Part shown: in pieces, positions 3,601 through 64,000 of the stretch
Numbering within the stretch: position 1 is the stretch's first letter
Layout: each line of letters starts with the position of its first letter
Source of the DNA: Fasciolopsis buskii
Taxonomy: Eukaryota > Platyhelminthes > Trematoda > Plagiorchiida > Fasciolidae
Direction of reading: 5' to 3'
Assembly: GCA_008360955.1 (NCBI GenBank)
Contig: LUCM01004329.1
Coordinates: 3,495 to 67,494, forward strand
Length of the DNA stretch: 64,000 bases
Program-made: the position numbers and the translations under genes
The notes under the pieces: model-generated
The model's input: the letters and a program-made list of their open reading frames with translations, nothing else
What the model was told of the DNA's origin: nothing
Databases searched by the model: none

Positions 3601-5690
3601 CGATAATCCGCGTAGTTACCGCTTACCGTGTCAGAACTCGGGCGCCAGTTCTGGCTAACAGGTTCCTCGCAGGAATGATAGGGTAGCAGACTCGGAATCG
3701 CCATTACGAGAACGAGAGCGTTAGCAGCGCGTTCGCTGCAGATGCGAGATCTGAAACGCAAGAGAAAAGTGGTCTGGCTTGGGTGCCAGCTTGGGGTTAT
3801 GTTGATTATTGAATCATGACAACAAACCAGTAACATGGTGCATTTATTCCGTAAAATTTGGTAACTAGAATTGAGCCTTGATAGCAGTTTTACTGGTAGT
3901 TGAAGAACTGCCTATTCAGCCTTGCCAAGCTAGTAAAGAGGATATGATGGCAAGAAGAGCGAGGAGTACAGAGGCTGAAGGTGTTTAAAATCACGAAATG
4001 CGATGAAAGCATGGATCCGTCATGAAGTGCGTTGACATTTTCGTCCGCCCATATTGGGAGGATTTCTAGAGTTAATTGCTCAAGCCACTGTTGAAGAGGG
4101 TACATCACTACAAGGACGGTCAAAACGTGCATTAGCGCGGACGTGCGAGAACGTGTGGAAGAAAAACGTAAAGCGGAATTCCTGATAGCGATCTCATCAA
4201 AGACCTCGTCACGAACTAAAATACTCTCCCATGTTCGTAAGCCTCGTCTAGTCCAGTGTCAGCTCGTGTCAGGTTAATTAAAACCTGGACATCCGGTAAC
4301 TTTTCCAGCTAGGCATTCAACTGGGATAAATTTGTGCAAGACCGGAGGGAACTAGGGAATTTGGTCCACAATTTGGAGTAGGCACCTTTGAAGAATTTAG
4401 CCCTGATCGATAGTCGAGTCGGGGGTATTCCTAACAAGTAGTATCCATTACGAAGTGGATAAGAGGGACTGCCAGCGTCATGTATGACGTTTGTAGTAGA
4501 GTGAACATTATTACGGCAAAGAATAACGAGAAATGCAAAGTTTAATTTGACTCGGCGAAGCCACAATTGTTCACGTCCAAGCATACGACCAAATTCAGAT
4601 CGGGTGCTGTCTCCATTTGTTTCTGATTGATTATTAAGACCAATCTGACATGCAATTCAGACTACCTCTTCCTTTCATGTTTCAGATCACAGAAGGAGGC
4701 TTTTTTGCCAATGCCGCTTCCGCAATGCTACGGGCAACCCTTTAATCTATTGGCTTTTCACTTCCTCCGGGACGCTGCTAGCTCCGAGTGTTTGTCCGTT
4801 CTATACAAAGACAACCCAAACCACGCAGGTGATTGTCTTGGTTACTCCTACTCATATGGACCTTCAGGATTGAGCAAAAACACGCTCACTGCTAGCACTG
4901 ACATGGCGTGCACCCCCCCTCGACTTCTGGACCCGTGCTGCCCGATAGGACCAAAATTCCGACAGCAAAGGTGACAAAATACATGGCCGGTGTATTTAAG
5001 AAACGTTTTTATTTGCTGCACGAATTCATCACACCTCTCAGACCATTTTGCCGCCACCCGCGTATAAATGCAACCAGCAGACGCGAAAGCTCAGTATTCT
5101 CTGCGCATACTCTCCCATAAAATGTTATTCATTAAATGGCCTAACTCCACCTTTATTAGCCCTTACTGTTTTTAAAGCGACTAGTTTAACATCAACGCAT
5201 GAAGTCTCGCTTGAATTTGACTAATCTTTATCTAATTACTATATCTTCATTGCTCTATATCTTCTCAGCTTAGCTTTCCTGTACGTTACGTAACGTTCTT
5301 GACATCCGAGGACCCCGATAATATTTCCATATCCGCCACTGCACTCCAGCCAGGGTTTGTTCCAGCGATACGCACGTATGGTGCGCTCAAACACGAAATG
5401 ACTGACAGTTAGGTGCTTATGAATAATCCAAGAAAATCAAGTAGAACTATGTAAAACGATCGATTCCACTCTGACTGGTTTACTTATCTACTGCTTGACA
5501 CATTTTAGTCTGATGATGCTTCCAAGAGTGTTTCTCTGGTTATCCAAGTTGGCACAAATCCGCATTTCCATTTTGTTTCCTGTTATTTGCGTTTCATCAG
5601 CGAAATCCATGCATAAATTTTACCATGCCTTGGACATGCCTCTTGGAAATCTAGAAATATACATTATTACCGAATTTATCAATTAATACC
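661..5690. other. Long stretch without a recognised gene
   Basis: Open frames here are short and overlap on both strands. The longest are 2980-3450 (-, 156 codons), 2175-2543 (-, 122 codons) and 3495-3836 (-, 113 codons). None shows a domain I recognise or splice sites that join it to a neighbour. The stretch around 2960-4600 is richer in G+C and may be a decayed mobile element, but I found no transposase or reverse transcriptase motif. Confidence 0.4.
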
Positions 5691-14800: not shown

Positions 14801-17800
14801 CTTCCGGTGGAGAGCACTGAGTAGTGCTGGTCGATCTACGGAGTGGGTAAGCACCTCTCAAGTCGGGGAAGACTATGACCGTAGGGCGGCGGTGTGTGTG
14901 GCGCGTTTCGAGCATCTGTCGAAGAGTAAATACCTGGTCGATGCAACCTCGACCTGGCCGAAATCCGGCCTGTTGTTCGCGGATATTATTCTGGAGAATC
15001 GGTTTCAAACGGCGCAGCATTATCGAAGCTAACACCTTAGTAACTATCGGAATTAAACTAATCCCACGATGATTGCTACGGTCACTCCGTGTGACCTTCT
15101 TGAAGATGGGTATAATAAGTGACTCACCCCACGAAAGCGGGATACGCTCCTCGTTCCAAATATCACGAAGTAAAGAGGTAAGTGATTTCATCAGAACTTT
15201 TCCACCCAATTTGAAAAGAACTGGGGGAAGGTCGTCGGGACCGGCAGCTTTTCCCCTCTTCAGAAGCCGAATATTCGACTCCATTTCCACCTCCGTTGGA
15301 GGACCAAGTGACACTTCCCAAGGATTCACAGCTGCAGAAGTCAGACTAAATACGTTAGCGCGTGGCCAGCTAAACTGATCCTTGGAATGCTCTGCCCAAC
15401 GGTCCGGTCTTTCCTGTCTACCATGAATGAGCTCTCCACTCCTATCGCACACGACTTCACTAACCGAAGTTCGCCGGTGTCGCCCACCGCTGTCGCGTAT
15501 AAGCTTAAACAGTCTTTGGCTGTTACCTGAAGCGGACGCTTCCTCCATCTTCGTGGCTACCTCAACCCGTCAGTTTTCACGGTCACTTTTAAGGCTTATG
15601 ATCAACTGACGCTGCAGCTATCGACGCATCTTATTCACTTGCTGGTAGTTAGGTAGCTGGCGATTTTGCTCCATTAGATTTAGCGACGCTTGCGAGATCC
15701 AGCGTCTTTGATGAATGCTAGATCTGGGACCACAGGCGAAATTTGCTGCCAAATGCATCGGCTGCTTAATTTGATCCCACTGTTCGTCTACATTGCTGCC
15801 CGTCGAAGTTCTTAGTCCCTCGAGTAGTTTCTACTTATAGCTGTTGAGAACAGCCGAATCAGACAAACGTTCGACAGCCAATCGGGTTTGTGGCTTGCGT
15901 CGATAGCCATTCAGCTGCAGCCGAAATCGCATTAAACTAGCACATGGTCCGATTCGACGTACGTGGTCCAGTATGATCTACAGTTCTGGACGGAATCGCA
16001 TCAACGGTAACTTACTACAATATGGTCGATCTGAATTAGACTACCTCCTGATTTCGGGCGGCATTTTGCTAGATAGGAATAAATGATTGCCTGCACAAAA
16101 CTTGAGAAGTCCTTCCTCGTTATCTGTTCGCTGTGAGGGCAAGGCGCATCGCCCACCTAAACAGGACTCCGATGCATCAGGTTTTTCGAACTTGTGCATT
16201 AAAATCACCTGCTACCACTACAATGTCACCCTTTGCTCTTCTGAACAAGAGTGACGAGGTTATCATAAAACTTGTCTTTATACATGTCAGTGCTTCAGTC
16301 AGTGTGGGCCTATGCCGAGATGACAAATAAACTACGATTAACACTACTATCCTTCCGGAAGCCTACTGATCCCTCCAGTCTCACGGCACACAAGCGACTG
16401 TTGACTGGGATCTAGTCTAAAAGGGCTGCTTCAGCCTTCTCACTCAAGACTATTCCTACACCACGTTGACCCACAGCTTGAGCTGCTGCGTCTCCTGAAG
16501 TGCGAAGAAAATATCTTGATGAGACGTTTGGCGCAGTTAGCTGAATTACTCTACTCGAATCCTGAATTCGTGTTTCGCTCACGCAACAGACATCAATCGA
16601 AAGTGAGTCCACTGTGAGAGCCAAACACGCCTGTTATCCAGCCTGCATTAAAATGCGCACATTGAAGGAACCCAGATGCAGAGGCTGACGAGGCTTGAGA
16701 ACATGTAAGCTGACAGACTGAAAACCACCTACTACACTACTTGACAATGAACCGTTTTGAGTATCGGGCGTGTTATCAGCGAGGACACTATGGGTAGGCA
16801 GAAGGGTCAGAGAGATTCGGTTGGAGACAGAAGAGACAGGTTGAACAAAAGAGAGGAACCTCTGAGCAGTAGCATACTTATCCCTACCCACCCCACATGC
16901 GCACGATGCAATGGGCAGCGTTGTCCTGATTATCCTGCGCGAAGACCGATGCAGTATGGAATTGTTTGTAGGCGTGTAACTCATGCAGATTGGTGGACGA
17001 AGAGAGTCAAGCAGCTAAGGAGGTTTCTCAACCAAAGCCTTTGATTCTGACAAGAACCTGATCGCAGAGCAGCGGGTACAGCTGAGTGGAAGCCCATCTA
17101 CTTGGGTCAATTAGTCTTCTATCGCTTTTTCCGACTGAGCTGCCAACTCAGATCAATTCCTCACTGGGAGGACCAGAGACTACTTCGTCAAGTCTCTACC
17201 CATTGACCTTCTAGGCATAGTTAGATCTTTGGCTTGAGATAAGCCATCCTGTATAGCTCGTTGGATCATGGAGGCACGCAAGCCGTCATACCAAGTCAAA
17301 GCGTAGTCTCGTTGTGTCAGTTAGCTGGATACAACAGCAGACGGTGAACAGGGGCGATAGTGTTGTCATTTTCTGATAAGTGAGAATGAATAAAAGTTTG
17401 CGTTTGTACAGTTAGACCGGCTTTCCATACAAAGTATGGCAGGAAAATGTTTCTTAACGAATTCAGGAAAATAAGAGGTATGTGGGATTTTTTAACACAG
17501 TGTTTTACATGTGTATGTGGTGATGCACTTTTAACTGTCTGAAATCGTTAAGCTAGCTCTCATCTGTGACACAGATACATTAATGCTTTGAAAGGTGAAT
17601 TTGAACTTTCGCCAGGGACCCCCGATTTACGTCACGTAATTAACGTTAGTTACGAGAACCATGGAAGGTGTACGCATGTGGTTGTTTTCAATATTATGTA
17701 GGTAAATGATTTACTAGTTAGCTTATGAACAGCAGTCAAAGTGGTTGTTCTAAAGTCTGTTTTATCTGCGCAATAATTAATTTAATGCAAGTCTTCATTT

Positions 17801-20800: not shown

Positions 20801-23800
20801 ACGGTGAACGGTGGCGATCGTGTTTTCATTTTCTGTTAAGCAAGAATGATAAAGTTTGTGCGTTTATACAGTTAGACTGGCTATTACGATATTCTTTTAT
20901 ATTCCCTCTCCCAGTTCTTCTAGCATATTCCTTCTTCCTATAGCAATTTTCACCTCTAGAGAAAAAGCAGTCGTCATTTTGCTTATTTTGCTTTTCAAAA
21001 CTGAGCGAGGATAGTAATGTCCAAAAATATGGTCGGACTGAAAGAATTCCGGTGCGTAAGACGGACGTGCGGCGGTTTCCCTGTAATGAGCGTATATATT
21101 CGAGGGAGGCTGCTATATCATTTGAAGTTGGGTAAGCCGTTGGGAGTCTGCCCGGTAGCCGAGTGGCTAAGTAGTTCAGCTGAAAATCGTTTCGGTTTCG
21201 TGTCCCACTTCGGGCATTGCCGATGATCCCTAACAAGGATGAGACACCTGGGTAGTGCTTCCATGGTTTCGTAATGGTTATTTCGGTGTTGGTATCTTAC
21301 TAGATAATTTCATGAACGTAATTATTCATTTATATATGTATAATATAGAGTGGTTGGTGGCAATTCGCTGCCAGCTGACCTGTTAACACCAATGTGATTC
21401 TGTGCCAGTTCCAAATTTAAAATGTTGGTTGGCGGCTCATCGTCCTCGTATGTAGTGGACACCAGCGGAGGGGCATGCTCCCGCTACTGTACTGATACGT
21501 CAAAAAGGTGTTTAACATTCATTAAAAATGTGGCTTTCGAATTCCCATTTTTGTCGAGCCGGAGTAACGTGTTTCACTTGTGTTGTTTTGAAGCATATAC
21601 TATGCAGTACATTGGGGGGGGGATTGCGGCGTCTTTTTTAATTGCTGAATAGTGAAGTGATTGACGGTGGAAGAATTTGATTTAGAGACACTTGCATGAT
21701 AGATCGCATTTAGCCGCGAAATCGGTGGTAATTCTCTTTTCGCGTGATTGTTTTGTAGAATGCAGTCACTTGAGCTTAATGTGCTTTAAAGCGGCTTTAA
21801 TTTCTGACCACTCCCCGGATTTTTCCATATCGAGTTTCCTTATAATCGAAAATTGATTATTTTCTTACTAATCACGTAAACTATCGAGCCGTGCATTGGT
21901 GCAAGTTTTTCTGTGATTCAACTTGATCTTTAAATCTTTCATTTATTCACTTCAGAGCAGTTGCGCCGTGTTGACCAAAACATGGATACGATCCACGAGG
22001 ATATGAGAGTTGCAGAGGGACAGTTAGAAGAGCTAGAAAAATGTTGCGGGCTGTGCGTTCTACCGTGGAAAAAGTAAGCTCTTTTATCCGATCTTGGTGG
22101 CTATTATTTCCTCATTTCCCATAAGAACCAATCTTAATCGTTGTGTCGTGTATAGAAACACGGTTTTTAATGTTCACCAAGTATGACAGTTCAATTCAAG
22201 TTCATTTATATCGTGTTGTTTCGTTTTTGTTGTACGCTATCACCCAAGAAGCTTTCAAGTCCCATATCCTTGATTTTGCGATTTCTTTTTGATGATGCGT
22301 AATTCATTGAGAAGTGCACCGCGGCCGTTGAAAGACTGACGAGAACGAGGAAATTGACCGGCGTCAAGAAAACTGGAACAAACGACAGTTTGGTTGAAAT
22401 TCCGCGGTATCGAGTGCTTGCTCATCGCTAGTTAACAACTGGGTTGCTGTGGGTACTAAACTACTCTAGGGCAGCTCATGATTTGATTGTTGTTGAAACA
22501 GTACTGTTCGTCATCAGCAGAGACAGAAAAGATGCAGATTATCCAATAAATGACGTTTTTCCAAATCTGCAACTGACTTCGATGTATTGTACCGGTCAGA
22601 TTAGTCAAATGGAAAAAGGACTCCGTAAAGAGGATGTGGCCCATTGAACTTTCCTATGGACCTCTTTAGCACATTGTTTCAAGGGCGTGTCAGCAACTCA
22701 AAGACGCACTGTTCTATCTTTTATGACATGCCCGGAGTATGTATGTAGTGAAAGAGACTTACCCCATAGCCACTAGGGACCACTGCGCGGGTAAGGAGAA
22801 CCGGCAACCTTGACCCTGAGACTTAGTGGCATGGAACCACATAAGGTTTCAATAGATCAGGTGTGGTAACCAGCCGGGGGTAGCGAGTTGCATCTACCAC
22901 CAAAGTGATCAAAAGATCTGGGATTCGGATATCATCCTACGGACAACAGATGCTTAATCCACACACCGGGTTGAGGACCAGTTTGTTACTGGCTCAAAAA
23001 CCGATATAGAATTCCACAAAAATATCGGATACAAATACGGGAGGACAATAAACAACAAATTGCATTTTTGGCGTCCACGTTTGGATATTTTTAGCTGCCC
23101 TTGTTATTATTTGCGGAAGATGAATACCACAAATGAGCCGTACAGCATTCAGGCAAGTCACTTCGGCTCTGAGTCCTCTTATAGTCTTTGACCAACAATT
23201 GTCATTCTTTGTTTCAGCCAGGAAGACGAGACGCATCAGCTTGGTCTGTTTCCTAATGCTCCTGCGCCAACTCATCTTCGTCTCCATCTTCCAAAGTAGA
23301 TGGTAGATGGGGCCGCGCCTCGTCTTAAGCAGCTTCCAGTAGCATCCGGCTCACCCATCTGCCAGTTTTCACCACTTCACTGTCTTACCGTTGAGACATC
23401 GCTTGAAACCAGTTTCGCTTTGCTCTTCTACAACAACAGATGAGAATTGATTGGAGGGGGTAGTTGCGCATTTGCAAAAATAATACACTATAGAAAGACC
23501 CGTCAGTTCACTCTTCTGCAGTATGGGGCTGTGTCCACGCGTTCGGTTGCAACCAAGTAGCGGGAACAATCCTATGGGTTTCGGCTCCGAACCACTAAGA
23601 ACCTCCTGGATGGGAGTAAATTCCAGCGGAATCTCCGGTAGATAACAGAGTACAATTTGAGCAATTGTAATCGATCTTCATAGTTGACTCCGTGCAGTCC
23701 ATGTGGCGTGACGCCCTATACGTTCTAAGTTCATCACCTCAGTGGCTATGCATAGAAATGCCGCAGATCCACCATGTTTGAGCTGTGACCGAGCAGTTTA

Positions 23801-26800
23801 TTGAAAGCCGCAATGGACGAACTACCAGAAGAGCGCGGATATCTCCCAGCACGTTTTATCAAAGGCACAAGCCCTACCGACTTAAGACTGTGTTTTCGTT
23901 GAAGAAATGTCGTCACCGCACGATCTCTTAGCGTCTACTGACTGCAAATCAGTCTCACCATAACTGTAATGCATCGTTGCATTTTCCTTCCCCAATGCGC
24001 CTATGCTTGGACCTGGAAAAATGATGGACCTTTCCCACATCTCTGCTCACCATTCAAATCATTCTGGACAATCGTGACATCCATCGGAGTGTGGATGATG
24101 TGCAACAGTTTCAGTTTGTTGATAGATGGCATTTCGCTGTCACCCGGCTCTTTACTATACCTGACTTATTGGGACTTTAGCTGCTTCTATTGCACTCCAC
24201 ATTTCAGGCTCACAACTGATGGTTCCCTCCCATCTTCTGTGTAGTAAACCCTAGAGGCTGTGGAGCATGTCATTTCTATGAAACCTACGTGTAAAGCCTA
24301 GTATAATCAAGCATCATCAACGTAAATCTTGTAAGGAGACGTGAATGATAATAGTAAACCAAGCGATGACCTTGGAAAGACAACCAAACCCAGAATGGAT
24401 GTCTGCGAAGCGACAAATACCATGGGCTCATAAACATTAGAAGAAAGCCAGGCAATCAACTGTATCCATTAGGTCCCTTGGGAAGTGTTCGTGTTCTAAA
24501 TAGCAATATCTATTGACCAACCTAACGTTAGATTCATTGAAGTCCACCATAACTAGACACCATCCATTGGAAGTCCGACGGCTCAGTTTGTCTAAAGTGA
24601 CTATAGTTCCAGCAGCAGGAGGTCTATAGCAAAAGTCGGCCGTCGTAGTGTCACTTCTTGAGAGTTCGAGTTTGCATCACGTCGATTCGACGAGGCCATT
24701 GGAATCAGCGTGATTCCGGGACTAAGGTACAAAGGAAAATGTCCCGAACGGAAAGCTTGTCAGCAACACACTACGTTGAAGTTATTCGGACACCGGAAAG
24801 CCATGTAGCCCGAAATGTCGACTTCAGAATCATTCACAGCTGGCACGGGCCATGTTTCCATGGGCACAGTTACCACTGAGAAGCGATTTAACACAAACGA
24901 TTCAAGGTCGTGACATTTGTTTTCAAGAAAGCGAACGTTAGTCGTCAAGATTCTGGGTTAGCTTGGACCTTTCACGTCACCAGAAGTTTCCAACTATTTT
25001 TGACTCTCCGTCCTACATATCTAGATCAGGTTTTCGTCTGTTGCACTCGGGGAATTTCTTAGACAGTTTATGTAACATCTACAAGCACCTCCCTTTATGT
25101 TAGGATTATAGGTGGAATCTGTTATGGTCGATGACTAATCCAAGGTTTTCGGAACCGCAGATTTCATTCCTACTATTATTTTTCTAAAAGAATCTGTCCT
25201 TTTCTCAATATTTCGAAATTGACGTTATTTTATATATTGCGCGGATGAATATTTTTATATGTCCGCGAAATGATTCGTAAAAGCCTGTTCTGTGATTGGC
25301 CAGTCCACACATCGATCAAGGCCACCCAACAAAACTATATAAACGATAGAGCTCACTTGAATTCTGACTTGTGTTGGTGGGTCACCAATAAACACACGGC
25401 AGTACTCTGTGTTCGTCTTCTCTCTTCCGCTAGCGGGCTGGGCTAGCTGTTCGTATTTCGCGCCGCTTATTGTTCCGTGTGGCTGCTCATTCAAGGAGCA
25501 ACAGATCTGTCCCATTCGTTGTGCGACTACGGGCCTTGAGTCTTGAGCCCGAACTTTTTGTGTCTCCAACCTGTGTGTGTGTGTGTGTTCGTGTCCTACT
25601 AGACTACAGGCTGTGCTCCTGGGATATAGTGCACTGCGAGTACTTGTGTCTTGTGTTTCAGTGTGTGCATAGAACAACCAAACACGGCAACATAACAGAA
25701 TCTCCCCCTCGCCATACAAAAATTCCGAGTGGACGAATTTTCCAGTTCTTCACTGAATGCTTCCGCAACTCGTTGATTTCTTGTTTCATCTTCGGACGGT
25801 CCTCAGGGTCGGGCGATATTACCTGGATGCCACGAGCGTCGGGGTGGGTGGGTGTGTTGGTGGTTCATTTGATGGCCTGGGCGACTTTCATAATTCGAAA
25901 CGAGCAGACTTCGCGAGTCTTATCAGAATACAACACAAACCTTACACGAGCTGCGTCATGAACGCTTCCTCATCTGCAATCACCTCAAAGATTGTGCATC
26001 TCTTCAGGAAATCGAATTCCAGTAGTCTCTGAGCAGTAGGCAAAAGCAATTGGGATAGTCATTCTCAGGGAGCACTAAAATCTGGTTGATGTAGACGGCC
26101 TTTGAGCAACCAGGACATGCACTCCAGGCGTCCGTAGACGTCGGGAAAAATCTGGGGCTGCGGAGGTAGGCTGCGCCAAGGCCGGCAGTCGGGCACGCGC
26201 TTCCGATACCCTAGTTTTCCTTGATCGAAAGCGCGATCTTCCGCGACATATCCCGATTATTCCGAAGTGTAAGTTCAGCAGAGGTGGTCATTGATGGTGA
26301 TTTTAACGCCAAGTTCAAGTACTTATCGGAGACAACCACACGTGAAAGGCGGGTTTCCTGTCCCCGCTAATCGCATGGACGACGGTGACCACTTCACCTA
26401 GGGAAGCACACCACCGGTTTCGCTGTTATTACCGCTTGTCAGGTGTGCATACTCTCCTCCCCAATCATTTCTGTACTTGTGCACTCCTTTATTAATTTCT
26501 CACTGGAATCTCATTTGAATCATCATATTCTGCATTACCTGACCGACGAAAAAATTCCGGCTGATCGCCCTGTGATTTTTGAATGGGCTTATCATCCATT
26601 CACGCTCCTAATTGTTGAACTGAGAGTCTTGTGATAATGGCAACTTATTTGGGTTTTCATTCCGCATCCCAAAATCACCCGTATGGTATAAATCGGACGG
26701 TTTTGTACACGAACAAATATCATTGTCCTCACACCAGAACTCAAGTGAAAGACCACAATAAGCACAAACTCATGTTTGACTGTTTGAGTGCAAGAATTGA

Positions 26801-30530: not shown

Positions 30531-33500
30531 TTATGCCCGTGCAATGGGCCCTAGTGTGTGTATGCCCATTCTGCTACATTCTTGCTTCAAACATGTAGCA
30601 CACAAAAGGCTCACCCTTTCACGTGTCTGAACATCCAGTTGTAAAGCTGATCCGATGGCGATTCAGCCTCGTTCGTGGGCGTGGCGCAGACGCATCTTTA
30701 GTGCTGCAGCAAACTGGAGCCACACCAGGTTGGTTCTTGGTGTTCCATGCGATTTTCAGTATTAATTTGTGCTACACCAACGTTCCATAATCTGTCTTCC
30801 TCATTTCTCACTGTTTCTTCTTCTGCACAGATCNNNNNNNNNNNNNNNNNNNNNNNNNNNNNNNNNNNNNNNNNNNNNNNNNNNNNNNNNNNNNNNNNNN
30901 NNNNNNNNNNNNNNNNNNNNNNNNNNNNNNNNNNNNNNNNNNNNNNNNNNNNNNNNNNNNNNNNNNNNNNNNNNNNNNNNNNNNNNNNNNNNNNNNNNNN
31001 NNNNNNNNNNNNNNNNNNNNNNNNNNNNNNNNNNNNNNNNNNNNNNNNNNNNNNNNNNNNNNNNNNNNNNNNNNNNNNNNNNNNNNNNNNNNNNNNNNNN
31101 NNNNNNNNNNNNNNNNNNNNNNNNNNNNNNNNNNNNNNNNNNNNNNNNNNNNNNNNNNNNNNNNNNTGTCACTTGGTCCTCCAACGGAGGTGGAAATGGA
31201 GTCGAATATTCGGCTTCTGAAGAGGGGAAAAGCTGCTGGTCCCGACGACCTTCCTCCAGTTTTTTTTTCAAATTGGGTGTAGAAGTGCTGATGAAATCAC
31301 TTACATCCTTGCTTCGTGATATTTGGAACGAGGAGCGTATCCCGCTTTCGTGGGGTGAGTCACTTATTATACCCATCTTCAAGAAGGTCACACGGAGTGA
31401 CCGTAGCAATCATCGTGGGATTAGTTTAATTCCGATAGTTACTAAGGTGTTAGCTTCGATAATGCTGCGCCGTTTGAAACCGATTCTCCAGAATAATATC
31501 CGCGAACAACAGGCCGGATTTCGGCCAGGTCGAGGTTGCATCGACCAGGTATTCACTCTTCGACAGATACTCGAAACGCGCCACATCCACCGCCGCCCAC
31601 ATCGTTCTAATGTTTGTCGGCGAGTAGTTTTCGTCTTCTACAATGCTTTCATGGCATTGTTTTATGTGGAATATCTTATGAACCACACAATTGCTTACGT
31701 TAAAGCAATTAGCAAAATTTGTTCTCGAAATTCGTAGATATTGTGGAAACGAAATACTACGTTTATTTTTTATGGCCAGGTAACGGAAATCTTTGAATTC
31801 GCTGGTGCTTTGCTCTGTTACACGATTGCATTACGAAATTCCAGTAAATAACATGCAATTGAGCTTGAATCCGAGGTTTATTTTGTGGCGATTTCCATCT
31901 TTTTTAATTTGGTCATTGATCACTTCAAATGGTATGTAATGCGGCATCTTTTGGTTATTAAAAAACCTCGTGACGCGGAGAAAGGCTGACTGTGATAGCA
32001 TAATAGCATGAAGACTTCTGTTGAACAAGTGATCTTGTTTATCTATGCAATCTTGGATGAATAACGAGGTCCTCCCTACTAATTTTGTCATTTACGCACT
32101 TTGTCAGGTCTCATCATACCATATTCAGTTTGGTTTATCATAATGACCAAGGTTGTATGTTGATGTCTAAATAATGTGGTATAGGATAGGCTTTGATAGC
32201 GGGTGTCTGTAAATTCATTCACAATGCTTGCTGGTGCTGTTATATGCTATATGTTAGGGACAGTAACCTACTCACTAAAAAAATTTTGGCATGCATCACA
32301 AACAGTGGTGATCAGAAAGTCAATGAAATTTCAGCTTGAAGGTTGCGAGTTCAATTTCTCTGACCACCAGTCAAATTCCCTACTTGATAAACTTAGCCAG
32401 TGATAAACGACGACTCACTGTCGCCCTTCTTGTTGCCACATCTGACCTATTGAGATCCTATGTCGTAAAGTCTATCAGTTTTCTCTCCCTCATGTAGTGG
32501 GCCCTAGTGTTAATGAGATACGATCCTTCCATTACCATGCCATAAAAACTCCACTCTCAGAATGATGTGCAGTACTAATAAAAGAAATAAAAAAGAGTCC
32601 GCTACTATCCTCTGTCGCTTGGGTCGTCTGTCCTTCTCTCGCTCTCTCTCTGTACATATTTATTTTTGTAGTTTCCGGCGTGAGTTTGCAGTCGGAAATG
32701 ATGATTCTTCTTGCTTTTCCGTTTGTTTCTGTTCCTGTAAAATTTTGAGCTTCAGTAGTTTAGCGTCCATATATTGGTGTCACTGGATTCTTTTTTCGGA
32801 CATTACCCATGTCTAGCCATAGAGTTAAAGGCACAAGTTTTCACGTCAGATCTGAAACGGTTCCAGTCACTCCCGAAAATTGTAAACGGCATGTGATGAG
32901 GTCAACTAATTATGTGGTTATAGGCAGAGTTGTTCGAAACCTGCCTGCGATCTCGACTTTTCCCCCAGTTGAGGTTACCAACAAACAAGAGGAATCTTCT
33001 GGATATCTGTGATGTCGGAGACAGTATAAAGGCTCGTCCAACAGTAAGCCATCACGGTTTCACTTGGACCTAAGAATAATAATATTCAGTTCACAGGCTG
33101 GAAATGCGTTTGTCGAAATTTTAAAAAGTTTTCCAGTATCAAGCGAGCGCAGGTATTCCGACGTGTATTTTCATAATTTTGAAACTACTTCACCAAATGA
33201 AATAGCTGAGTCTATTCAATAAGATGTTCCCTTAAAATGCAAAAAGTTCAACTAGCCGATGCGGCTCATCACAGACCAATCTATTCAAACCATTCTCTCA
33301 TACATGAACTTATTCGTGGGATGTGACCACTGAAAGATCGCAGGACTGATCAATGCAAAGATGTCGGGTCGCTTTAGAACCTCAATGACAGTTTTGAAAG
33401 TTCAGGGCATAAAGTCTCCTATTCAGACAAATAGAATTCGTGACGTGAATAGGCATTTTACTTATGTTATCGCTTTTTCAAAGGGGTTGCACATGCGAAG

Positions 33501-36500
33501 ACCTGGGACTTGTCAAGTAGTCAAAAACCCCACCGACCGAAGTTCTAAGAAATGACATACTGAAAACGCCAGAATTCTTAAAGGTTAGAGATTACGTACC
33601 AACGCTTTAAAAGGTTTTGCGAGGTTGGTTCCTGGGGATGGACCAAGGATTTCATATCCAGTGTTAGGTAAGGGTCGTTGATTAAATGAATAGAAGGTTT
33701 TGCGAGGTTGGTTCCTGGGGATGGACCAAGGATTTCATATCCAGTGTTAGGTAAGGGTCGTTGATTAAATGAATGACGTTACATTCTATCCGGTCAAGAA
33801 ATGAATCATGAATACGAAGCCCGTTGCCGCGGCAGTCGAGCTTAGGTCGAATTTGGGCCCCTTACAACAGAGTACGCTACCGAGACGTGAACAAACACCT
33901 AATGCATGATAGAAAAAGACAACAAGCAGGAAGAATGCGTTTGAGCACCAAGTTTTGCGGTGGGATTGCTGAGAACCGAATGAAATGGATGGGCCTGTGG
34001 TGAAGAAAGTAGCCATTTCAAAATTTGAGATCAAATGAGAAAAGAATTACGTAGTGAAGAAATCAGGCAGTTTCTTTGAAACAGAAAAAAATACATTGTG
34101 AATGATATAATGTTAATAACGCAGCGTTGTTGGTAGATGTAATGTGCCAACGTTTCGACTACCGTGGGTAGTCTTTCTCAAGGCAAGTTTTACAATCAAA
34201 TACATGTGCACAGGTTTGTCCGAGGTTAAAACTAGGAGACTCATCGAAAATAACAATCTCGCTCAGTGTTGGTAAGAAAAGGAATGGTGTAGGGCGACAT
34301 CATCGGCAAAAGAACGTTCACGGATACGAGTCGTGGATCCTAGATCTCTAAAGGGCAGTATGGAGTAAGTAAAAGTAGCGCATCTTGGCGAACATGAATT
34401 TTAAGAGACGGCTGTGGTCGAATGTTGTGGACCCTGGCAAAAACGCCTTTGTCTGGTATAGGTGGCAACCCGCTATCACTCAGCTCGTTACCATACCTGA
34501 TTTACTGAGACCTTATTTGTTCCTATGGCACTCCGCGTTTCAAGTTCATGGTTTCCGATTCTCCTCCCCGTGTAATGGATCCTAGCAGTTGTGGCGGCAT
34601 GCCGCCTCCACTACGCTTATGCTCTAAGCATTTCATGGAAAATAGAAAAGACGAATGTTGTTTTGATCGCAACTTCGTACAAAGTACGATTAAAATAAAT
34701 TCGACAAAAAGTGTTTCTCCCAAATTAGGGAATACTTGTAGTCATAATCGTAGAACGAAAATAAAAATCACTAGATGGAAAGTTTATTTGGCCGAACTCA
34801 ATAGTGGCGATCTCCCAGTAATCCTTTGCATTCAAAGGATTGGCGTAATTGGCCCAAGGTATCAGATTTCATTATCTTCAGAATGTGGAACTTAGGGGAG
34901 ATATAGCAGGTGTTCTTAACGTCAAAAGAGTTATCTCTTCTGTGAGTAAGAAATGTTTCAAGAAAAGGAAAAAAAGTTTTTGAAGAATGGAAAAAAGTCA
35001 CAAATTCATGGGTTATTTTGAAGACCCTGGGCAGAATGCTACGCGCCTTATGTTTTGATTTTCTGCTCGTCGGTAAATATATTTCGTTGTGATAACGGAT
35101 GGGAAAGAAAAGTTAGTTGTTGAGGTTGGAGGTGGTGAAATACAAGCGTCAGTTGTGGTAAAATTAGAAAAGTACCGGATGGCCTTAGGGTCGGGTTTCT
35201 TATCAGATTTACTAAGAAATCACACGTTATTAATCGAGGGATGAAGGTTAGGAGTTCTACAAATTACTGTAAACGGAATCAAATTATATTATTAATATTA
35301 TTATTATTATTATTATTGTTATTATTATTATCATAGTGGATGAAACCGTCCTTTCTGTGCATTGGTGTCAATCTCACCGAGTTAACAACTCGCAATATCT
35401 TGGAACCTACCTAATCTTTTTCAAAATTCAGTACGGTCATAGTTTGCGCGGCTGTCACTTGCAGTAAACGCCTCCGGAAATACTCCCGATCGCCCGTTCC
35501 TCTAAACGGTTCTGCGGAGGCAGTCCACCTCACATCTGTCAGAGGTGTTGTTTTTAAAATCTGAAAGAGAAGGCTAACGGACGGCGGGCTGTCGAGATGT
35601 TTTATTGTTCGTTGTCGGTCTACAGCAGTTGGCTAGTCCCTGACCCAAAGACACTTACGGGCAAAGCAAGAAGCTCAAGCGCCTGTGACGAAAGGATTCA
35701 CTGAGTCACTTGCTCCCAGTAGGTTTTGTGACTCTGCTACCGTGTGTATTGAATTGTTTAGTCAAGTGTTCAAGGTTGGTCGTCCTAAGTAGACCTTCTA
35801 CTTCGATTTTGGTAGCTGTGTAGTACGATGCCCACTGACAGACCGGGGATCATAATGACCACCAAATAAAGTTAACAAAAATAGTTTATATAATGCTCCA
35901 TTGGATTCCATCGGTCGTTATGAAGTTATTTGGAGTTTCTTCAGGCTTTTTGCGATTGACTCAGTGACTTCGACCAGTGCTGCCGAAGAAAGTTCCCTTT
36001 TGCATAGTTAGTATGCATGAGCGAGTCGCGAAGTGTCTGATGGTGGCATGTACATCATTTGTCCATTACCTGCCAAGTGGCTAGGTTGATCTTCCTCTTT
36101 TCCTCAGAAGCAGTCCTGAGAGTTGAAAATACATGAAAACTATTAGAGCTCGTGTAACAATTGGCTGGCCTCATTTTTCTGAATATAGTTCAAAAATTGT
36201 GTCACCGGTGCTTTGTCAGGTGTAGAGCGTTTCCAATCAGCAACCACTTGATGCGTGAGCTGACTAAAACGTTCATTTTGTCTGCAGACCTCTTCTTGTA
36301 CACACATCTTCCGGGCCAAGTTTTATGGCCATGTTGATTTCATTGTTTCGTGATACGACTTATATAATTGCGAATCTAAATCAGCGGTCTTGATCGAACA
36401 GAAATTACAATTGCGGCTTGAGATTCACGACGTCTACTGACTTTAATGGTTGAGGATATTCGATGCCGTTAACTAAAGGTACATAGTTTTTCCCAGAAGT

Positions 36501-38297: not shown

Positions 38298-41200
38298 TAG
38301 CTAAATTAAGCAGGCGCAAAAAATTGGTTTATTAATCAAAATCAAATCAATTATATTGGTTTCCGGTGGTTAACACTCACTAATCGCTCAACTTATCGAG
38401 TGGTGTAATCGATGCGATATCATCACAATTGCGTTGATCTTTGGTTAAAGTGATGGATGTGATGGCTTACTGCCCTTACAAAGTGTTCTTTGGTAGTCAC
38501 TCTGGGATAGATGGCTAAATGGTGATTACAGACCAACTTCGGCCGACACGAGGAGCGCAGAACACTGTTCACAGGGATATTTGATGGTGGGATGTACTTG
38601 GTACTGAAGAGCATATGATCAGTCACCAGTCACTCATTCCCAGCGTGCTGTGTGATCCTCAGATCGTCCTGTAAATCCGGTTCAGTTTTGACGACATCCA
38701 ACTTCAGATAACGCACTCTGACGTTCGTTGTTGCCTCACGGAATCGAACAATAGTGAGAGAAGATTCATGAGATCGTAATTGAAAAGAACTATAGGAAAG
38801 TGAAAATATATCGAATACGGGGACATCAATGACCACCGCATTTGGCAATATCATCCAATAACTCTGGTCACCACGTGAACCTCCAATTCGGTAGCCTAAC
38901 TCGGCACAGTGCACTGATTAAGGTTCCCATATCTTTTCGCCATCTCATGAACTGGTCTCCTTGATCCATCTTCCTGCGGTGGTGAATAGCCTATACAGAG
39001 GGAGCCGATCTGTGAGCATGCGTAATCCATGCTTCAATCACATCAATTAAACCTCATTCCGCACCTGTTCGATCAACAAAGTTCTGCGACCCAATATCCT
39101 TCACCTAACCTCAGTTGCTTAAAGAAAATTTCTCACCGTGTTCTGTGCAGACGTGCGATCTGGAAGACAGAAAATCCTCGTACATCTCCCTTCTAAGACC
39201 ATACTGCTGATTTGTATAACGGGATCGACCTTACCGCCGCAGTTTATACTCAACTGCTGATCCATAACCGAATGTTGCGCCGTCGTCACAGATGTTTCAA
39301 AGTGGTAAATACCAGTCGAGCATAAGCAAAGACACTCCATCCGATGTGCAGCCACCTGCTGAGATGCGACAGTCCAAGTAACAAAACTCACTTGCTACAT
39401 CCAACTCCTATCCTTCAAAGACAAAGCAAAACTTGGAGTCTCCTAGAACCAGCCGTAGCCGGACACAGCGAATAGTCGTTTATCACCACTGCACTCATGT
39501 ACAAGCTGTTCTTTCTAAAACGTGGAGTCATGTCCTATGTACCGTATGACGGGTAAACTTTATTCGTCTGTCGCCTATCCGGTAGCTTAATGGCTAAGGT
39601 GTTCGACTCAAAATCGTTCGTCCCTGGTTCGCGCCCCAGTAGATATGCACCGCTGACGATTCCTAAAAAGGACGAAACAGCTGTACAGTGCTTCCATGGT
39701 TTCTTAACGGCGAGTTGAGTGTTGATATCACGTGAATTTTTTCATGAAGATATATAGAGCGATTTTTGATTCATAAGATATTCAGTTGCATCCTATTTTC
39801 ATGCGTTTTTTAGGATTCATATAATTTTCATTTGAATCTCAGTCTTGGTGACATCTCGAGTGAATTCCGTTAGCATGGTCTCGTTGTAAGGCACCTACCT
39901 TTATGAACTGATACATGCTTGCCAAATTTTGTATCTTAACGGAAAGTGAGATTTTCTACTGCGTGCTCACATTGGCGTTGTCGGAAAAGCTTGATTCATA
40001 TTTTCGAAGGCCTGCTACATTTTGGAGCAGTATTGGTAATCTCCAATTTGAAACTTGCAGCGGAATGGATTCACCTGGGACTCAGTAACTCAAGCTTAGT
40101 AATGGGCCGGACCACTGCGAACTCTCATCCGTCATCAAAGTCACCTGCGGTGATAGAGGTCGGATTTCTGGCCTTCGGGTTGTAATAATCGCCATTTAGT
40201 GACTGAGGTTGAATTTTGAAACCAGTGAATAATATTGGCCTTTAGATGCAGCATTATTATTATTATTCATTCACCCTAGTAGACGTTAGTAGTACTTTCG
40301 TTTAATGTGTAGCAATTAGAATCATGCCCATCACTTTCGATTGACATAAAAGATCATACCATCCACACGGTTTCTTATGTTCGCTGACCGTCCATCACAA
40401 TTTGCATCTAGATGAACGATACCACCATCTGTACCTTTCCGTAAATAACCAATTTGGAGAAAAATCCTCAGAATTAATTGTGACCACAGATAATTTCAAG
40501 AAATATCCCTTACTCAAATGCAAGCGCACTCTGTGTTTCGCCCACACGATACGGATCCTAATGTCCCTTGATCTCTATTGGGGCGTAGACGCGTAGTCAT
40601 TCGCCTTCCTAAAGTTAGAAGTATGCAGATTACTATGGGGTTGCAAGAACCTGGTTTTTGACTTGCGTCATTGATACCGCAGTCTTACTTGTGGTTCATG
40701 GCGGTCCGGTGTCGTACGCAAAGCACGACCAGATTGGAAGCAATACTGGTGGGTTCAAATTAGGACTCTGTCACTTGTCCACTCTCATTTCACTAGTGGC
40801 ATGAAGACGTACTAATCAAAAAACCGGCTCAGTTGCATTCAGAGTAGGGTTGTAATTAGCATGGCAATACAGCTCGAAGACGAATTTTATTGTGCACGGT
40901 TATCGATCGCATTCGTAACGTGTCGACCAGAGCGAGAAAATGGCCTGGTCGGTGTGTGGCCTATTATTGCGTCGGGAATCGGAAAATTCGTCTGGTTCCA
41001 CAGATCTTCTCACAAGTCAGAAATGAATTAAATGCTTGCAAGGTATCTCCGCTTGGAATAGCGATTCCGGCTGAAATAACTATACAGTGAAATTGAAGGG
41101 ACTGTTACCAACTTTTGTAGACGAATTGTTGCCCGTGATTTTCGCGTCCGACGGATGCGAATAATAACGAACAGTGCTTCTACCAAGAAGTCCCACGAGA

Positions 41201-47447: not shown

Positions 47448-47489
47448 TTCAACGTCTAAATCTCACTAGAATCTCGTTTGATTCGTTAG

Positions 47490-50144: not shown

Positions 50145-51735
50145 ACTGTCAGAGTCATACTTTTTCTCGACTAGAAAGGAATCTTGTAGATTTCTTTCCA
50201 TTTTAACCTGTGGTATGGCCAGAAACGCAAGTATCGGAGCGCCTCTTCCTGCTTTTTAAAGGTAAATAATGGCCGATAATGGTAAAGCCCATTGGTTGAG
50301 GTTTTCATATAATTTCGCCACGTTATGGTTTGATCATCTATACTCCTCTTCCAGCCGATGAATACTTCAAACAGCAATGCATACCGAGGATGTCGTTCTG
50401 CGAGCATGCGTAACACGTATCCAGCGCCTCAACGTGCTCAAATCAAATGCTTTTTCGATTGACTATACCAATGCCCTACGTGTCACTTGTGGTATATTAA
50501 GACAATATTCCCACCTCAGTTGAGTGATACTTTCAGGCACGAGCGCTCCGACACCGATAGCATTCGGATATCTGTTTTTACCGGCTGGGTTTCTGAGCCA
50601 TGTTGCAACAATCTTGTAAATGTAACGTTAGCTCGACCTTTAGTCAAAAGTGGAACGTCGTGCCGACACCACAGATGAATGGTAAACACCAAGTGATCCT
50701 TCTGTATTTGCGGCGGCGCTTCATCCAATTTGCGCTATTGTTTTCATCTTCATGACATCCGGTAATCGACCGGAGGTCGAGTTTGGACAGAGATAGTAAG
50801 ATCTCTCCTGACATATAGCTAACAAATAGAGTAGTTAACAACAGGTGTCCGAAGATTGTCTGTGCTTAAATAACAATGTTTGCTTGGCATTGGTGGGATG
50901 TCGTTAGAAAATTCCCTTGGCAACTCTGAGGTTAGATGTAAATTACTATTAGGTCACATATCTTGTACGGTCGAAAAGACACATAATTCGATTCGGTTGA
51001 GGTGATAGGGATATGTATGACATCCATCTCCGGATCCACTTCCTCTGTATGAGCTTTTCTCCGAGGCAAATAGTGGATAGGAGATGAGTTAAGGACGTCT
51101 GTCAATGGACGTGACTGCGAAATATTAAAACTGACCAGTAGACTATTCCGAATAGGTCGAACTAGGCTAATGGGTCTGCTTTCAAGTGGTCACACTTGTA
51201 ATCAATCTGGTCATGACAGGCTATCAGAATGAATGTCGAAGTCGGGAATTAATCTCGTCTACTCAACTTAATTCCAATGTCGACAAACCGTTTAGGCCAA
51301 GGTTTCGGATGGTGGGGTATCATGCACTTTCGCTAAAGCATGCTCTGATTTTGGATTTCGCCGAGTGGTTCCACTCAGTCTAATAAACTTCCGTGCAATT
51401 GAGTTACGTTGAGAAAACCTGTAATATAGAAGTAGCCAACATCTGTCACACAACACGAAAAACAAATTATTCCTGCAAAGATTATGCTAGGTTAATTAGA
51501 CTTCGAGCCTCAATGTATCTTTGATGTGAATATCGCTACGCAGTAGCAATCAGACAATATCAAGATGCAGTCCGTTACGCAAGGCTGAAAATGCTCGCAT
51601 AAAAATGAGAAAGTGACGGTAACACTTGCGGCTCTTTGTAATCACCAAACCTGACGTTTAGATCCCACATGTTTTATCATCAACAGAACTTCAGTTGTTG
51701 ATGAAGCGTTTTCAACGTAAACGTCATTTTGGTAG
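50145..51735. other. No recognised gene
   Basis: Short frames only (up to 81 codons). Nothing recognised. Confidence 0.4.
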
Positions 51736-51739
51736 TAGG

Positions 51740-51878
51740 AGATTGAATGTTTTCATGAAATAATTCACCATGTGATATGATCGCTCAACTGACCATAAAG
51801 AAACCATGGAAGCACTGTACGGCTGTTTCATCCTTGTTAGGAATCACCAGCAGCGCATATCCACCGCGCCCGAACTAG
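51740..51878 (-). repeat. tRNA-derived SINE, copy 3 (5'-truncated, core mutated)
   Basis: Minus-strand tail portion: core reads CTGGTGA in place of CTGATGA, while GAAACAGC and CAGTGC are kept. The head is lost. It abuts a plus-strand tail fragment at 51882-51925, giving a short palindrome. Confidence 0.7.
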
Positions 51879-51881
51879 GAA

Positions 51882-51925
51882 TTATTTCATGAAAACATTC
51901 AATCTCTCCTACTACTAAAATGTAT
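51882..51925 (+). repeat. SINE 3' tail fragment
   Basis: GAATTATTTCATGAAAACATTCAATCT... matches, in inverted orientation, the far end of the minus-strand SINE (51736-51767). Confidence 0.6.
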
Positions 51926-52100
51926 CAAGTAATCAAGCTCTGTAGGTCATATCCAAAGCCTTCGTCGTACTTAGGCTACCTGCAGAGAAGTCATCTATCA
52001 GTAGGGGTCGATCGCTTGATCTAACGGACAGTAACCGTGCAAATCAGTGACGGATAGGTGCAACATCATGTGGTGAAGTTGAACAAACCGTTCAGAGCCT

Positions 52101-52290
52101 GCCCGGTAGCGTAATGGCTAAGGCGTTCGACTCAGAATCGTTCGTCCTTGTTCGGGTTCGCATCCCAGTTCGGGCGCGGTCCATATGCACTGCTGATGAT
52201 TCCTAACAAGGATGAAACAGCTGTACAGTGCTTCCATGGTTTCTTTATGGTCAGTTGAGCGATGATATCACATGGTGAATTATTCCATGT
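52101..52290 (+). repeat. tRNA-Leu-like SINE, copy 4 (intact head and ribozyme core)
   Basis: Head 52101-52175: terminal GCCCG pairs with CGGGC; A box TAGCGTAATGG (52107-52117); anticodon-like loop CTCAGAA (52131-52137; would read Leu CAG); B box GGTTCGCATCC (52155-52165, one mismatch). Length and the extra bases between anticodon and T arms fit a class II tRNA such as Leu. The tail holds the hammerhead at 52181-52239 and ends in the A+T-rich string TATCACATGGTGAATTATT. No protein is encoded. Transcription by RNA polymerase III is inferred from the boxes. Confidence 0.8.
52181..52239 (+). ncRNA. Predicted type I hammerhead ribozyme in SINE tail
   Basis: On paper: stem I CCAT/ATGG plus GCACTG (52187-52192) / CAGTGC (52226-52231) with an internal loop between; core CTGATGA (52193-52199); stem II TCCT (52201-52204) / AGGA (52209-52212); GAAA (52214-52217); minimal stem III AC/GT (52217-52218 with 52223-52224); cleavage expected after A52225. 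All invariant core bases are present. Weak points are a U-U mismatch at the base of stem II, where G-C is usual, and a very short stem III, which in known minimal hammerheads often needs dimers. Schistosome SINE-like repeats (Sm-alpha) are known to carry hammerheads. Confidence 0.7.
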
Positions 52291-52299
52291 AAACGTCAT

Positions 52300-53300
52300 T
52301 CTCAGCTTTTAAAGGACCACCAATCTGAGCCAGTATTCAAAACCATTGACAATCGACCTTACTTTTTGGTGGTTGAGCATGTCAGCTGTGATGACCTGTA
52401 CAATTCATTTCTGCCTGATTGCGATCTGAGGTAAACCTAGATTAACTCTACTTTGTCATCTGTAAAAAGCTACCGAACTAATCCCATCTGCTCATCTCAT
52501 GCAATCGATACACTTATTGTTTACCCTAGTAACCCGTCTCCAAAAAACTGCGTCCGTCCTCAGTCAGCTAGAAATGGTGGCTGCTCCGCATGACTCCCTG
52601 GTGTGTCTGTCTGTCGGTAGGATAGTGGCAATTCCCAGTGGATGTCTGTTGTCTTAGTCCCTGCATGTCGTATCGTGCCATGTCAACGTGGAACTGAAAT
52701 TCCGCTCACTTTTAATCCCAATCTTGTCATTTATTTGAGCCTAATTTCTTCCACTAGCACCGTTTGGTTCCGATTTGCTTTTTTAAAGGGGTTTCCAAAT
52801 TGTAAGATGTACACAAGCATGTTTTCAGTGGGTCTATTCTTTCCCCAATACTTTCACTTTTATGACAATGAAACTCCAGTTGATAGAAGGTTAAATTTTT
52901 GATAGATGTCAAATTCAGTCAGAAAAACGGTAAATGAATCAGTTATTGTCAACAAAAACAGTCGAACAGTTTAATTAGGCCATTTCGTTAGTAAGCTTGC
53001 GTCACTTAAACGTGCGTTGCATTGTCAGTCGCTCACGAGAAAAGGTATAGTGCTTGAATTACTTTCCGCTTTCAGTAAAGTTCATAGTCACAGAGGCGAA
53101 TAAGAATTGCTTTGACAGGTGACAGTTCCCTCAGCTTGATTACTCTTGGCACGTGATGTATGCTTATGTCCGGCACCGCCTACAGATTTGCACATCTATG
53201 CCGAAGACACTTGACTGCGTTTGTAACGAGGTGGAATTCAACTCCGGTGTTCGACGTTGCTTTATGGTACACTTTCCTTCGAATAGAGAGACGATTGTAC
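52300..53300. other. No recognised gene
   Basis: Short frames only, no shared repeat recognised. Confidence 0.4.
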
Positions 53301-61200: not shown

Positions 61201-64000
61201 CGTGCCGGATACTTCCTTGTCCAACCGTACTCACACCTGTTTAGCAGAAATTAGCTTTACCTGACCGATGAACCATCGTGTGGTTCTTGAATGAATTTAT
61301 CATTTTATCACCCTCCCGATGATTTGTGTGAACCTAATGAAGGGGTGTACAACTATAGATATGGTTGAATTGGAGAATACCGTGTATACTCATCTGACAA
61401 ACGGCAATAACCCCTTTCGAGTGAATTTCGTTCATCCATCCGTAACTGAGGCATTCTACCGACAACTGAGGGATGCTGCGTAACTTTCTTGGTCATCGGG
61501 CTATGTAAATGAGCTCCTCAAGTAGATTGGAGAACACTTAAAACATAGAAGTGTAAGAAAAACTTGACTCCTTGTCATTATACTTTACATGGCCTGGAGA
61601 ATGAGTAGTTTTTCATCTTTATTTCCGTAGGTCCAAATTTCACCACAGCCGACTTTTGTCGGTTCTTCCTGTTGGCACAGCTGCTCTCCTATTGCGTTCA
61701 CACGGCTTGCATGTACTTTTGAAAAAATACTCCACGTGTTACCACAAAACTTTCCACCTGTAGATGGCTTTCATTTTTCCATATGAAATTCATGGTATTC
61801 GTGGAGTTAGAGGGTATCCCTTGTTTCGTTACTCTTAATTACGATAATGCAAAATACTGTCCTCGCTGGTCTGTAATCAAGCGTCGCATTCCTGCATTCC
61901 GTCATTGGGGAACAAAAATCTAAATACTTGTTCTTCATCGTTTCACCGTAGGGGTATGCGCACACGCACAGAACGTGAACCGATTCCATAAGAAATGGTA
62001 TTTTCCACATTCTGGTAGAAGTTTTCCGCGTCAAGTTTACAAAAGGACGGGCACACCGATGAGTCCGTTCGAGATCGTTTTCGAATTGGAAAGGGTAGTT
62101 TTATTCAGCCATCTATTCAATATTTAGCAAGTAAGTAGACCTGTCTACATCGTCACCTGATTGGGTTCGAAGGAGGTCAGGTAACTACGGCTATCCACTT
62201 CCGGGGTACATGAGATTTGTTTTGCAAACTATGACAGAACTATGATGAAATTGAATCAGCTCTCATTTATTTATTAAATAGTCCATCAGAACTGTATGAT
62301 AGCCAAAACGATTTGTCAGAGTAATAGTTGGAGTTGTATCGAATTGATCGCACTTCAGTCGACATCCGAATGCGCGTACGTCTGTAGTGCTTAGTTCTGT
62401 TTCAGTTTGAGTCGTTTTTATCCCATGGTAGTATCTTTATAGTTCAAGATTGACTTTAAAAGAGATCGCACTGCGTTAGTAAGTAGTCCAAATGAGAAAC
62501 TCTGTTTGATTTGAGAATCAAACACTACAACTTGTTTAACCCAAATGTAACTCACCTCCTCTGGTAATTGACCTTCAGAGCGACTGATCTATGTCGCCAC
62601 TTCCCTGAACATTATTTGTCGTCTGAATGGAATGTAAAGTCAAGACTGTTATATTCCAGTGAAATGGGAGTGATGATTAGCAGACGTTGAGGTTCGTTTC
62701 CATTTGCACCAAATCAGTTGAAGTCTATAAATCTAAAGTCGAACTGATAGTTTCTCGAATTTATTTGCTTATTTCTGGTTTCAGTACGACTTCTTCTGGA
62801 AGCAATCTTGAATTTATGCAATGGATGTTAATGCTTCTTACCACTTAGTTCTCATTTAAATTTCCTCATGAGGCATCTGATTATATCACATTCAACGTAA
62901 TTAAGGTGCATAACGGCTAATTAGCTTCATGTCAAGGTTCCCTTTTGTTATCCCAATACTCGCCTTGAGCGTTTGCTTTGGCGATCACGGATATATACAG
63001 TTGACTTTCCGTACGCTCCTTACGTTGACAAAACTCTTCTTTGAATACTTCTAATTGATCACAACCAGTAAGGTGAACAAGGATATTCCTCTTAAATCAA
63101 TACTTCTGCCGACAATATATGTTAACTGGACACTTATTCGCATCCGGTTTGCCAGCCTTTTATCTTTTGACCATGTTCTGTGGGGGCTATCATTACTTTC
63201 AGTTCAGCCACTCCCTTGGGGAGATTTTATCTTTCAGATGGAAACGACAGTAGAATTAAATATTGACAACCAAGGTTCCGTAAGCGCATCAATACAATTT
63301 CGTCCTATGGTAACCACAAGACACCTGAAGTGTTTTGTTTGTTGGTGCCTCATCACAGTAAAAGTGAAATTATTGGTGCACAGGTGACAATCACTGTGTT
63401 CCTCTGCATTTTCGAAATTGCAGCCGATAATATTCAATTGTCTGGGATGCGGACTACAAGAAGTTTTCTTTTTGTACTGTTTAATTTTCCCTAGGGTTTA
63501 TTAGTGCACCCGATCAACCGCAAATCTTTGATACCCTCAATAAGACGAAGCTTAGCTTGGATAAATATCCTCGTGACTTAGATGCATAGTGTCTCCGATT
63601 GTGCTGATGATATCAGCCTAGTGGAAATTGGTAATCAAATTCTCAAAATCCAATGTCTGGTGTTTCTGGGACCCCTACCGTGAACTGTAATCATCAATAC
63701 CATGTGAAGAAACTGTGGTAATTTCTCTTCTTGGTTTTACCATCAGTTTTAAAACAAGCCCTATAGTGTGTAAAACTACCTAAGAATAGGCTGTCTGAAA
63801 TGTTTCTAAAATGCCATGTATAAACGCAATCTCTCACAGCCCCCGTTTGATTAGTGGTACTTTATATCTGTTTGTCACTTCCTGATGAGGACACTCGTTT
63901 AGATCACTGAAATATCTCAAGCACAGGATAATTTTGTTTGACTTAATGATTAATGATTAATGATATTTCGATTCTGACAGGTGACGCGAAGTGACATGTA
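61201..64000. other. No recognised gene to the window end
   Basis: Short frames. Near 63600 a frame reads DCADDISLVEIGNQI, which could be a worn RT active site, but flanks do not support it. Confidence 0.35.

Follow-up and report, generated by a model that had tools for sequence, protein, structure and literature searches.

A hammerhead-bearing, tRNA-headed repeat of Fasciolopsis buskii with the insertion structure of Penelope-like elements

In this study, we report that a hammerhead motif found in 64,000 nucleotides of the Fasciolopsis buskii genome (the window, by which we mean the whole stretch of DNA analysed) lies in a large repeat family, and that its sampled copies show the insertion structure published as characteristic of Penelope-like elements (PLEs). 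The plan of the repeat unit is that of a metazoan retrozyme and is like that of the schistosome SM-alpha element. Our preferred reading, to which we give a probability of about 0.7, is that the feature is a non-autonomous retrotransposon of the metazoan-retrozyme type. In this reading, its unit of about 400 nt combines a type I hammerhead with a tRNA-derived head, the likely promoter for polymerase III; multimeric or circular RNA would serve as the template, and PLE machinery would carry out the insertion. Animal retrozymes make abundant small circular RNAs, and the enzyme that moves them has so far only been guessed. The insertion scars of ribozyme repeats are a clue to the machinery that moves them in animals, and retrozyme copies with a PLE-type scar make the question of the mobilising enzyme testable with one protein and one RNA.

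Results

A hammerhead behind a tRNA-like head

The initial annotation had proposed, directly after a tRNA-like head, a hammerhead with GCACTG/CAGTGC pairing and a U-U mismatch at the base of stem II, and the letters bear this out. Indeed, GCACTG, CTGATGA, a hairpin, GAA, ACAGCTGT, A and CAGTGC follow one another in that order at 52187-52231 (+), giving the core CUGANGA / GAA with three stems, of which stem I is the open one; where the usual G-C pair (10.1-11.1) would stand at the base of stem II, the window copy has U-U. A tRNA-like stretch precedes the motif. The parts are as follows:

52187-52231 (+): type I hammerhead, from its layout, the Rfam match and an alignment of 144 copies
52187-52192/52226-52231 (+): stem I, GCACTG/CAGTGC
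52193-52199 and 52214-52216 (+): core, CUGAUGA and GAA
52201-52203/52210-52212 (+): stem II, with U-U (52200/52213) below it
52217-52218/52223-52224 (+): stem III
after A52225 (+): cut predicted from the motif layout
52101-52176 (+): tRNA-like head (cmscan tRNA 17.8 bits, below the gathering score of 29)
52107-52117 (+): A-box-like TAGCGTAATGG
52155-52165 (+): B-box-like GGTTCGCATCC

The last two stretches resemble the consensus of A and B boxes. The tRNA derivation of this SINE head is also apparent in other copies: the head of one older copy (L076) scores 34.8 bits, above the gathering score, and ARAGORN calls a tRNA-Leu in one of 20 loci (L044).

A comparison with the Rfam hammerhead models, which the initial annotation had proposed as a check, returned a type I match (RF00163) at 26.7 bits (E 5.5e-4 in a scanned stretch of 1.2 kb) that lies below the gathering score of 34. 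This score was reached neither by the diverged copy at 39647 nor by the best of 20 loci scanned (33.8 bits), and a scan of the whole window gave no Rfam family at or above its own gathering score. With up to three mismatches, the 45-nt motif occurs twice in the window versus never in 100 shuffles. In predicted stability, the fold of the window copy is unremarkable (z -1.33; 19 of 200 shuffles equally stable). The motif is real, and its place inside a tRNA-headed, SINE-like repeat is supported by the thousands of copies and their core, described below, and by the tRNA score of L076.

Chance probably accounts for a weak HH9-like match at 26392-26460 (-) (22.5 bits, E 0.45), which overlies a different repeat: its CTGACAA stretch is part of that repeat, which recurs near 47486 and at 61326-61411.

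The window element and its family

The hammerhead belongs to a two-armed element bounded by a direct repeat, and two further copies of the family lie in the window. Unit coordinates (u1-u400) are those of one natural unit, from L009.

51717-51728: left target-site duplication (TSD) GTAAACGTCATT, a 12-nt direct repeat with 52289-52300, exactly at the element ends
51729-51879 (-): inverted arm, whose outer (3') end is the long, tail-bearing one (BLAST to the natural unit, u243-398)
51812-51856 (-): second hammerhead copy, with CTGGTGA for the CTGATGA core (3 mismatches to the motif; Rfam HH9 18 bits)
51877-51880: head-to-head junction of the arms, where the minus match ends and the plus match starts
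51880-52288 (+): direct arm, a little longer than one 400-nt unit (u357-400, then u1 to about u374), with the short 3' end
51892-51924 (+): tail segment; the long start site for reverse transcription lies at its 3' end, as placed from the 3' ends of sampled elements, and is read through here into the next unit
52289-52300: right TSD, the same 12-nt direct repeat
39573-39746 (+): diverged repeat copy (BLAST 79%)
39647-39691 (+): hammerhead in the diverged copy (RF00163 29.6 bits)
21123-21296 (+): older, decayed copy with core changes (BLAST 70%)

The window element thus has its long end on the left and its short end on the right. Elsewhere in the window, at 33611-33774, an 83-bp stretch stands in exact tandem duplication.

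Across the assembly (703 Mb, 6974 contigs), the hammerhead core pattern occurs at 2,308 places and the tail pattern at 5,029, the reversed control giving zero in both cases. The unit measures about 400 bp and is tandem in places, with four units on C6344 exactly 400 bp apart and four on C6002. In the L009 unit, the A box lies at about u185, the B box at u235 and the hammerhead core at u273, with the cut predicted after u305; TTTT is absent from the sense strand of this reference unit. Viral contigs gave no matches to two exact patterns (the window motif and a schistosome-type motif), and a phage collection gave none.

State of the ribozyme across the family

The 144 aligned copies were retained from 210 matches, 66 partial ones having been dropped for low coverage, and the set is partly motif-selected; with that selection, the core is intact in 101 of the 144. 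Stem I pairs are formed in 126 to 142 copies and stem III pairs in 136 to 141. The covariation analysis advised by the initial annotation shows pairs conserved among copies, and we claim no covariation because copies so much alike leave compensating changes invisible. The outer CCAT/ATGG pair of the same annotation holds for a minority of copies and fails as a general trait: its outermost two pairs are formed in 56 and 52 of the 144, most copies having GG, with which an alternative GGA/UCC pairing is possible in 83 and 87. G/C exchanges are frequent among the copies (GG/CC at u261-262, G/C at u275 and u332).

U-U is the family state at the base of stem II. It is present in 136 of the 144 aligned copies, a standard pair being found in five, and a hand count gave U-U in 91 of the 100 core-pattern matches listed, both positions being free in the pattern. 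A search of the literature on 10.1/11.1 mismatches returned nothing relevant. Self-cleavage of this variant at A52225, as predicted from its sequence, is doubtful.

It is a serious possibility, to which we give a little less than even odds, that the hammerhead has lost its cleavage activity and persists as a passenger or relic, the family spreading through uncleaved RNA. The prevalence of U-U speaks for this, as does a G5 to C change of the core in 23 of the 144 copies, including the tandem units of L018. Moreover, there is no accumulation of insertion ends at the predicted cleavage site: among 15 usable arms, a single one (in L124) ends within 3 nt of it versus 1.1 expected. It also agrees with a biochemical precedent, since an anole PLE can insert, in vitro, RNA whose hammerheads are dead and PLE insertion proceeds without hammerhead activity (PMC11167929, in excerpt). 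Against a relic, core positions other than G5 vary little among the aligned copies, yet young copies are expected to be conserved even without selection. The older copy L076, one of the rows dropped from the alignment, keeps G at 10.1, where it forms a G-U below stem II, and reaches 33.8 bits with RF00163, which also speaks against a relic.

Insertion structure of sampled elements

We analysed 91 elements, chosen by an intact hammerhead core and not by similarity. They come from 96 of the 100 core-pattern places listed in contig order, together with the window element, after removal of five duplicate loci and three elements cut by locus ends.

Two arms joined head-to-head were found in 48 of the 91 elements and one arm in 43, and no element was tail-to-tail. 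At the junctions, gaps range for the most part from -6 to +9 nt. The 3' ends gather at two sites about 30 nt apart, 54 of 139 falling at u360-379 and 57 at u390-409; measured downstream from the predicted cut, the sites lie at 68 and roughly 85-105 nt. The 5' ends are dispersed along the unit; 38 of 139 lie at u240-279, an excess that core-based selection would favour. Among the 34 head-to-head elements that could be classified out of 48, 29 combine a long and a short end versus five with equal ends (17 expected, binomial p 1.9e-5), so that the tail of about 30 nt is carried by one of the two inverted ends.

TSDs of at least 8 nt flank 22 of the 91 elements versus 83 of 8190 mismatched control pairs (1%), and TSDs of at least 10 nt flank 15 versus 17 of 8190. 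These counts are automatic; the GTAAACGTCATT duplication of the window copy was found by eye and stands outside the 22. TSDs of at least 8 nt enclose the whole two-armed element in 19 of the 48 head-to-head cases versus three of the 43 one-armed elements, a disparity that counts against the PLE reading.

These features bear on the view that the inverted junctions are artefacts of assembly or amplification. Amplified DNA can also give junctions with an overlap of few bases, and the assembly is fragmented. Such a process is nonetheless scarcely credible as the source of 48 head-to-head arrangements with no tail-to-tail one, of outer ends at set sites, or of duplications that enclose both arms.

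SINEs commonly use LINEs, and RTE-like reverse-transcriptase fragments do occur in the window, at 13890-15569 (-) and 30766-31737 (+), the RVT_1 test having covered the first. The closest named matches of these fragments are in flukes; for one RTE-like ORF they are Fasciola hepatica (64%), Echinostoma caproni (62%), Opisthorchis viverrini (47-64%) and Schistosoma rodhaini (58%), with a few insects as well. That the repeat is an ordinary SINE moved by a LINE, with inverted arms left by LINE twin priming, is nevertheless improbable. Of the two ends left by twin priming, one is a true 3' end and the other is internal, whereas in the present family each arm ends outwards in a 3' end of the element itself, placed at one of two set sites, and the tail is one-sided; a tail in common with the RTE copies of the window was not found.

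The arms of an element do not generally resemble each other more than they resemble other copies. For the 41 arm pairs sharing at least 60 columns, the median arm-arm identity is 0.902 versus 0.906 to other elements; eight pairs are distinctly alike, with L038 and L039 apparently a single duplicated locus, and 33 are not distinctly closer mutually than to other elements. Because arm-arm identity equals identity to other elements, the two arms would usually come from different RNAs. In 21 of the 91 elements, the window copy included, an arm extends beyond the start site into the adjacent unit, which indicates that the template was a multimer or a circle. Tandem neighbours are distinctly alike in nine of 20 comparisons, consistent either with repeated reading of one circle or with a local array.

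This last figure, like the 400-bp arrays on C6344 and C6002, is what one would expect of satellite DNA spread by unequal crossing over and not by retrotransposition. We regard this origin as very improbable, given that short elements are dispersed, bear TSDs and have fixed 3' ends with variable 5' ends.

Penelope-like elements of the same genome

The genome also holds a large PLE family of like structure. A search for GIY-YIG found two places, and the ORF of L133 matched the Pfam GIY-YIG domain with 28.6 bits. Through this ORF we recovered a PLE endonuclease family, with 150 matches scored among 3,598 candidates; within these 150, six opposite-strand pairs lie within 3 kb of each other and all are head-to-head. 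A one-sided tail is present in the three readable pairs (C6338, C4434 and C2400, the long end being somewhat shorter in C2400); of the remaining pairs, C3827 has one arm broken off early, and C1979 and C2633 are unreadable. In this family, two classes of 3' end occur, about 40 and about 92 nt past the presumed cut, and (TA)n follows. A minimal hammerhead pattern lies 3' of the endonuclease, read by eye and not reported by Rfam. L135 (C6338:92300-95700) and similar loci display head-to-head PLE copies with (TA)n ends and this minimal hammerhead.

Between the 3' region of this one PLE family and the retrozyme, we found no similarity beyond chance (best E 1.8) and so no sequence shared with an autonomous PLE. 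Most listed retrozyme target duplications are not (TA)n, unlike the ends of the PLE family, and the actual partner may thus be another PLE.

Discussion

We can propose the following course for the movement of the element. Transcription, presumably by polymerase III, would start at the head and continue through tandem units. The hammerhead may then cleave this RNA, with re-ligation of the products to circles, or the RNA may remain uncleaved. A PLE enzyme would open both strands of the target DNA 8-16 nt apart, as the lengths of the target duplications indicate, and each exposed 3' end would prime reverse transcription at one of two internal sites, the ends that we observe marking where priming may occur. 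One strand would usually take the long start site and the other strand the short one. Finally, two cDNAs, usually from different RNA molecules, would join head-to-head at a variable point with short overlaps, as seen at the junctions. This two-template, one-long-one-short pattern bears on PLE insertion itself, which is poorly known.

More tentatively, and with odds clearly below even, animal retrozymes as a whole might be the SINEs of PLEs. A PLE ribonucleoprotein, probably a dimer, would bring two retrozyme RNAs to a staggered break, where one would be copied per strand, from the long and from the short start. The hammerhead would make circles or monomers from tandem transcripts and would work here with its U-U, perhaps helped by the PLE protein.

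In the open-licence literature we found no description of this Penelope-type signature in retrozymes. PLEs have been named a strong candidate for moving them (PMC7229834, in excerpt), and no motif is said to reveal their partner in the excerpt of another account (PMC7761336); a 2024 review still gives LINEs or PLEs as the movers (PMC11722881, in excerpt).

Comparison with known systems

The initial annotation spoke of a related or distinct ribozyme SINE, which is right in kind; a metazoan retrozyme with Penelope-like insertion structure describes the repeat better. SM-alpha and Sj-alpha are SINE-like elements of schistosomes, reportedly described by Ferbeyre in 1998 and Laha in 2000 (as cited in PMC8490949). 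The present family resembles them by its fluke host, its SINE-like plan of a few hundred nucleotides and its type I hammerhead and, in a comparison made through the Rfam consensus only, resembles SM-alpha in its stem II letters. It differs from SM-alpha by the U-U at the start of stem II and by its unit of about 400 nt, the SM-alpha monomer being of 335 bp (PMC8490949, in excerpt).

Metazoan non-LTR retrozymes are described as non-coding units of 170-400 nt with a type I hammerhead, arranged in tandem and flanked by TSDs of more than 4 bp (PMC7229834, in excerpt). The family has all of these traits, with a type I hammerhead in units of about 400 nt, some of them tandem, no coding region and TSDs of at least 8 nt in 22 of the 91 elements. 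Its tRNA-like head, head-to-head arms and one-sided tail set it apart from retrozymes as described in that excerpt. Metazoan retrozymes are expressed as linear and circular RNA; the present comparison was made at the level of DNA.

PLEs have inverted pLTRs placed head-to-head, one of which may carry a 31-bp tail, and TSDs of 8-10 bp (PMC3846280, in excerpt). Both DNA strands are cut and extended, and two internal start sites explain the tail; in the anole PLE, the start lies at +111 to +118 and the cut at +26, that is 85-92 nt apart (PMC11167929, in excerpt). The corresponding distances are 68 and roughly 85-105 nt for the retrozyme and about 40 and 92 nt for the PLE family of F. buskii. The retrozyme differs from PLEs in having no coding region and a canonical instead of a minimal hammerhead, and from the PLE family of its own genome in the dissimilarity of the 3' regions. 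It is like PLEs in its head-to-head arms, its tail of about 30 nt on one arm, its short TSDs, its tandem units and its hammerhead placed upstream of two start sites.
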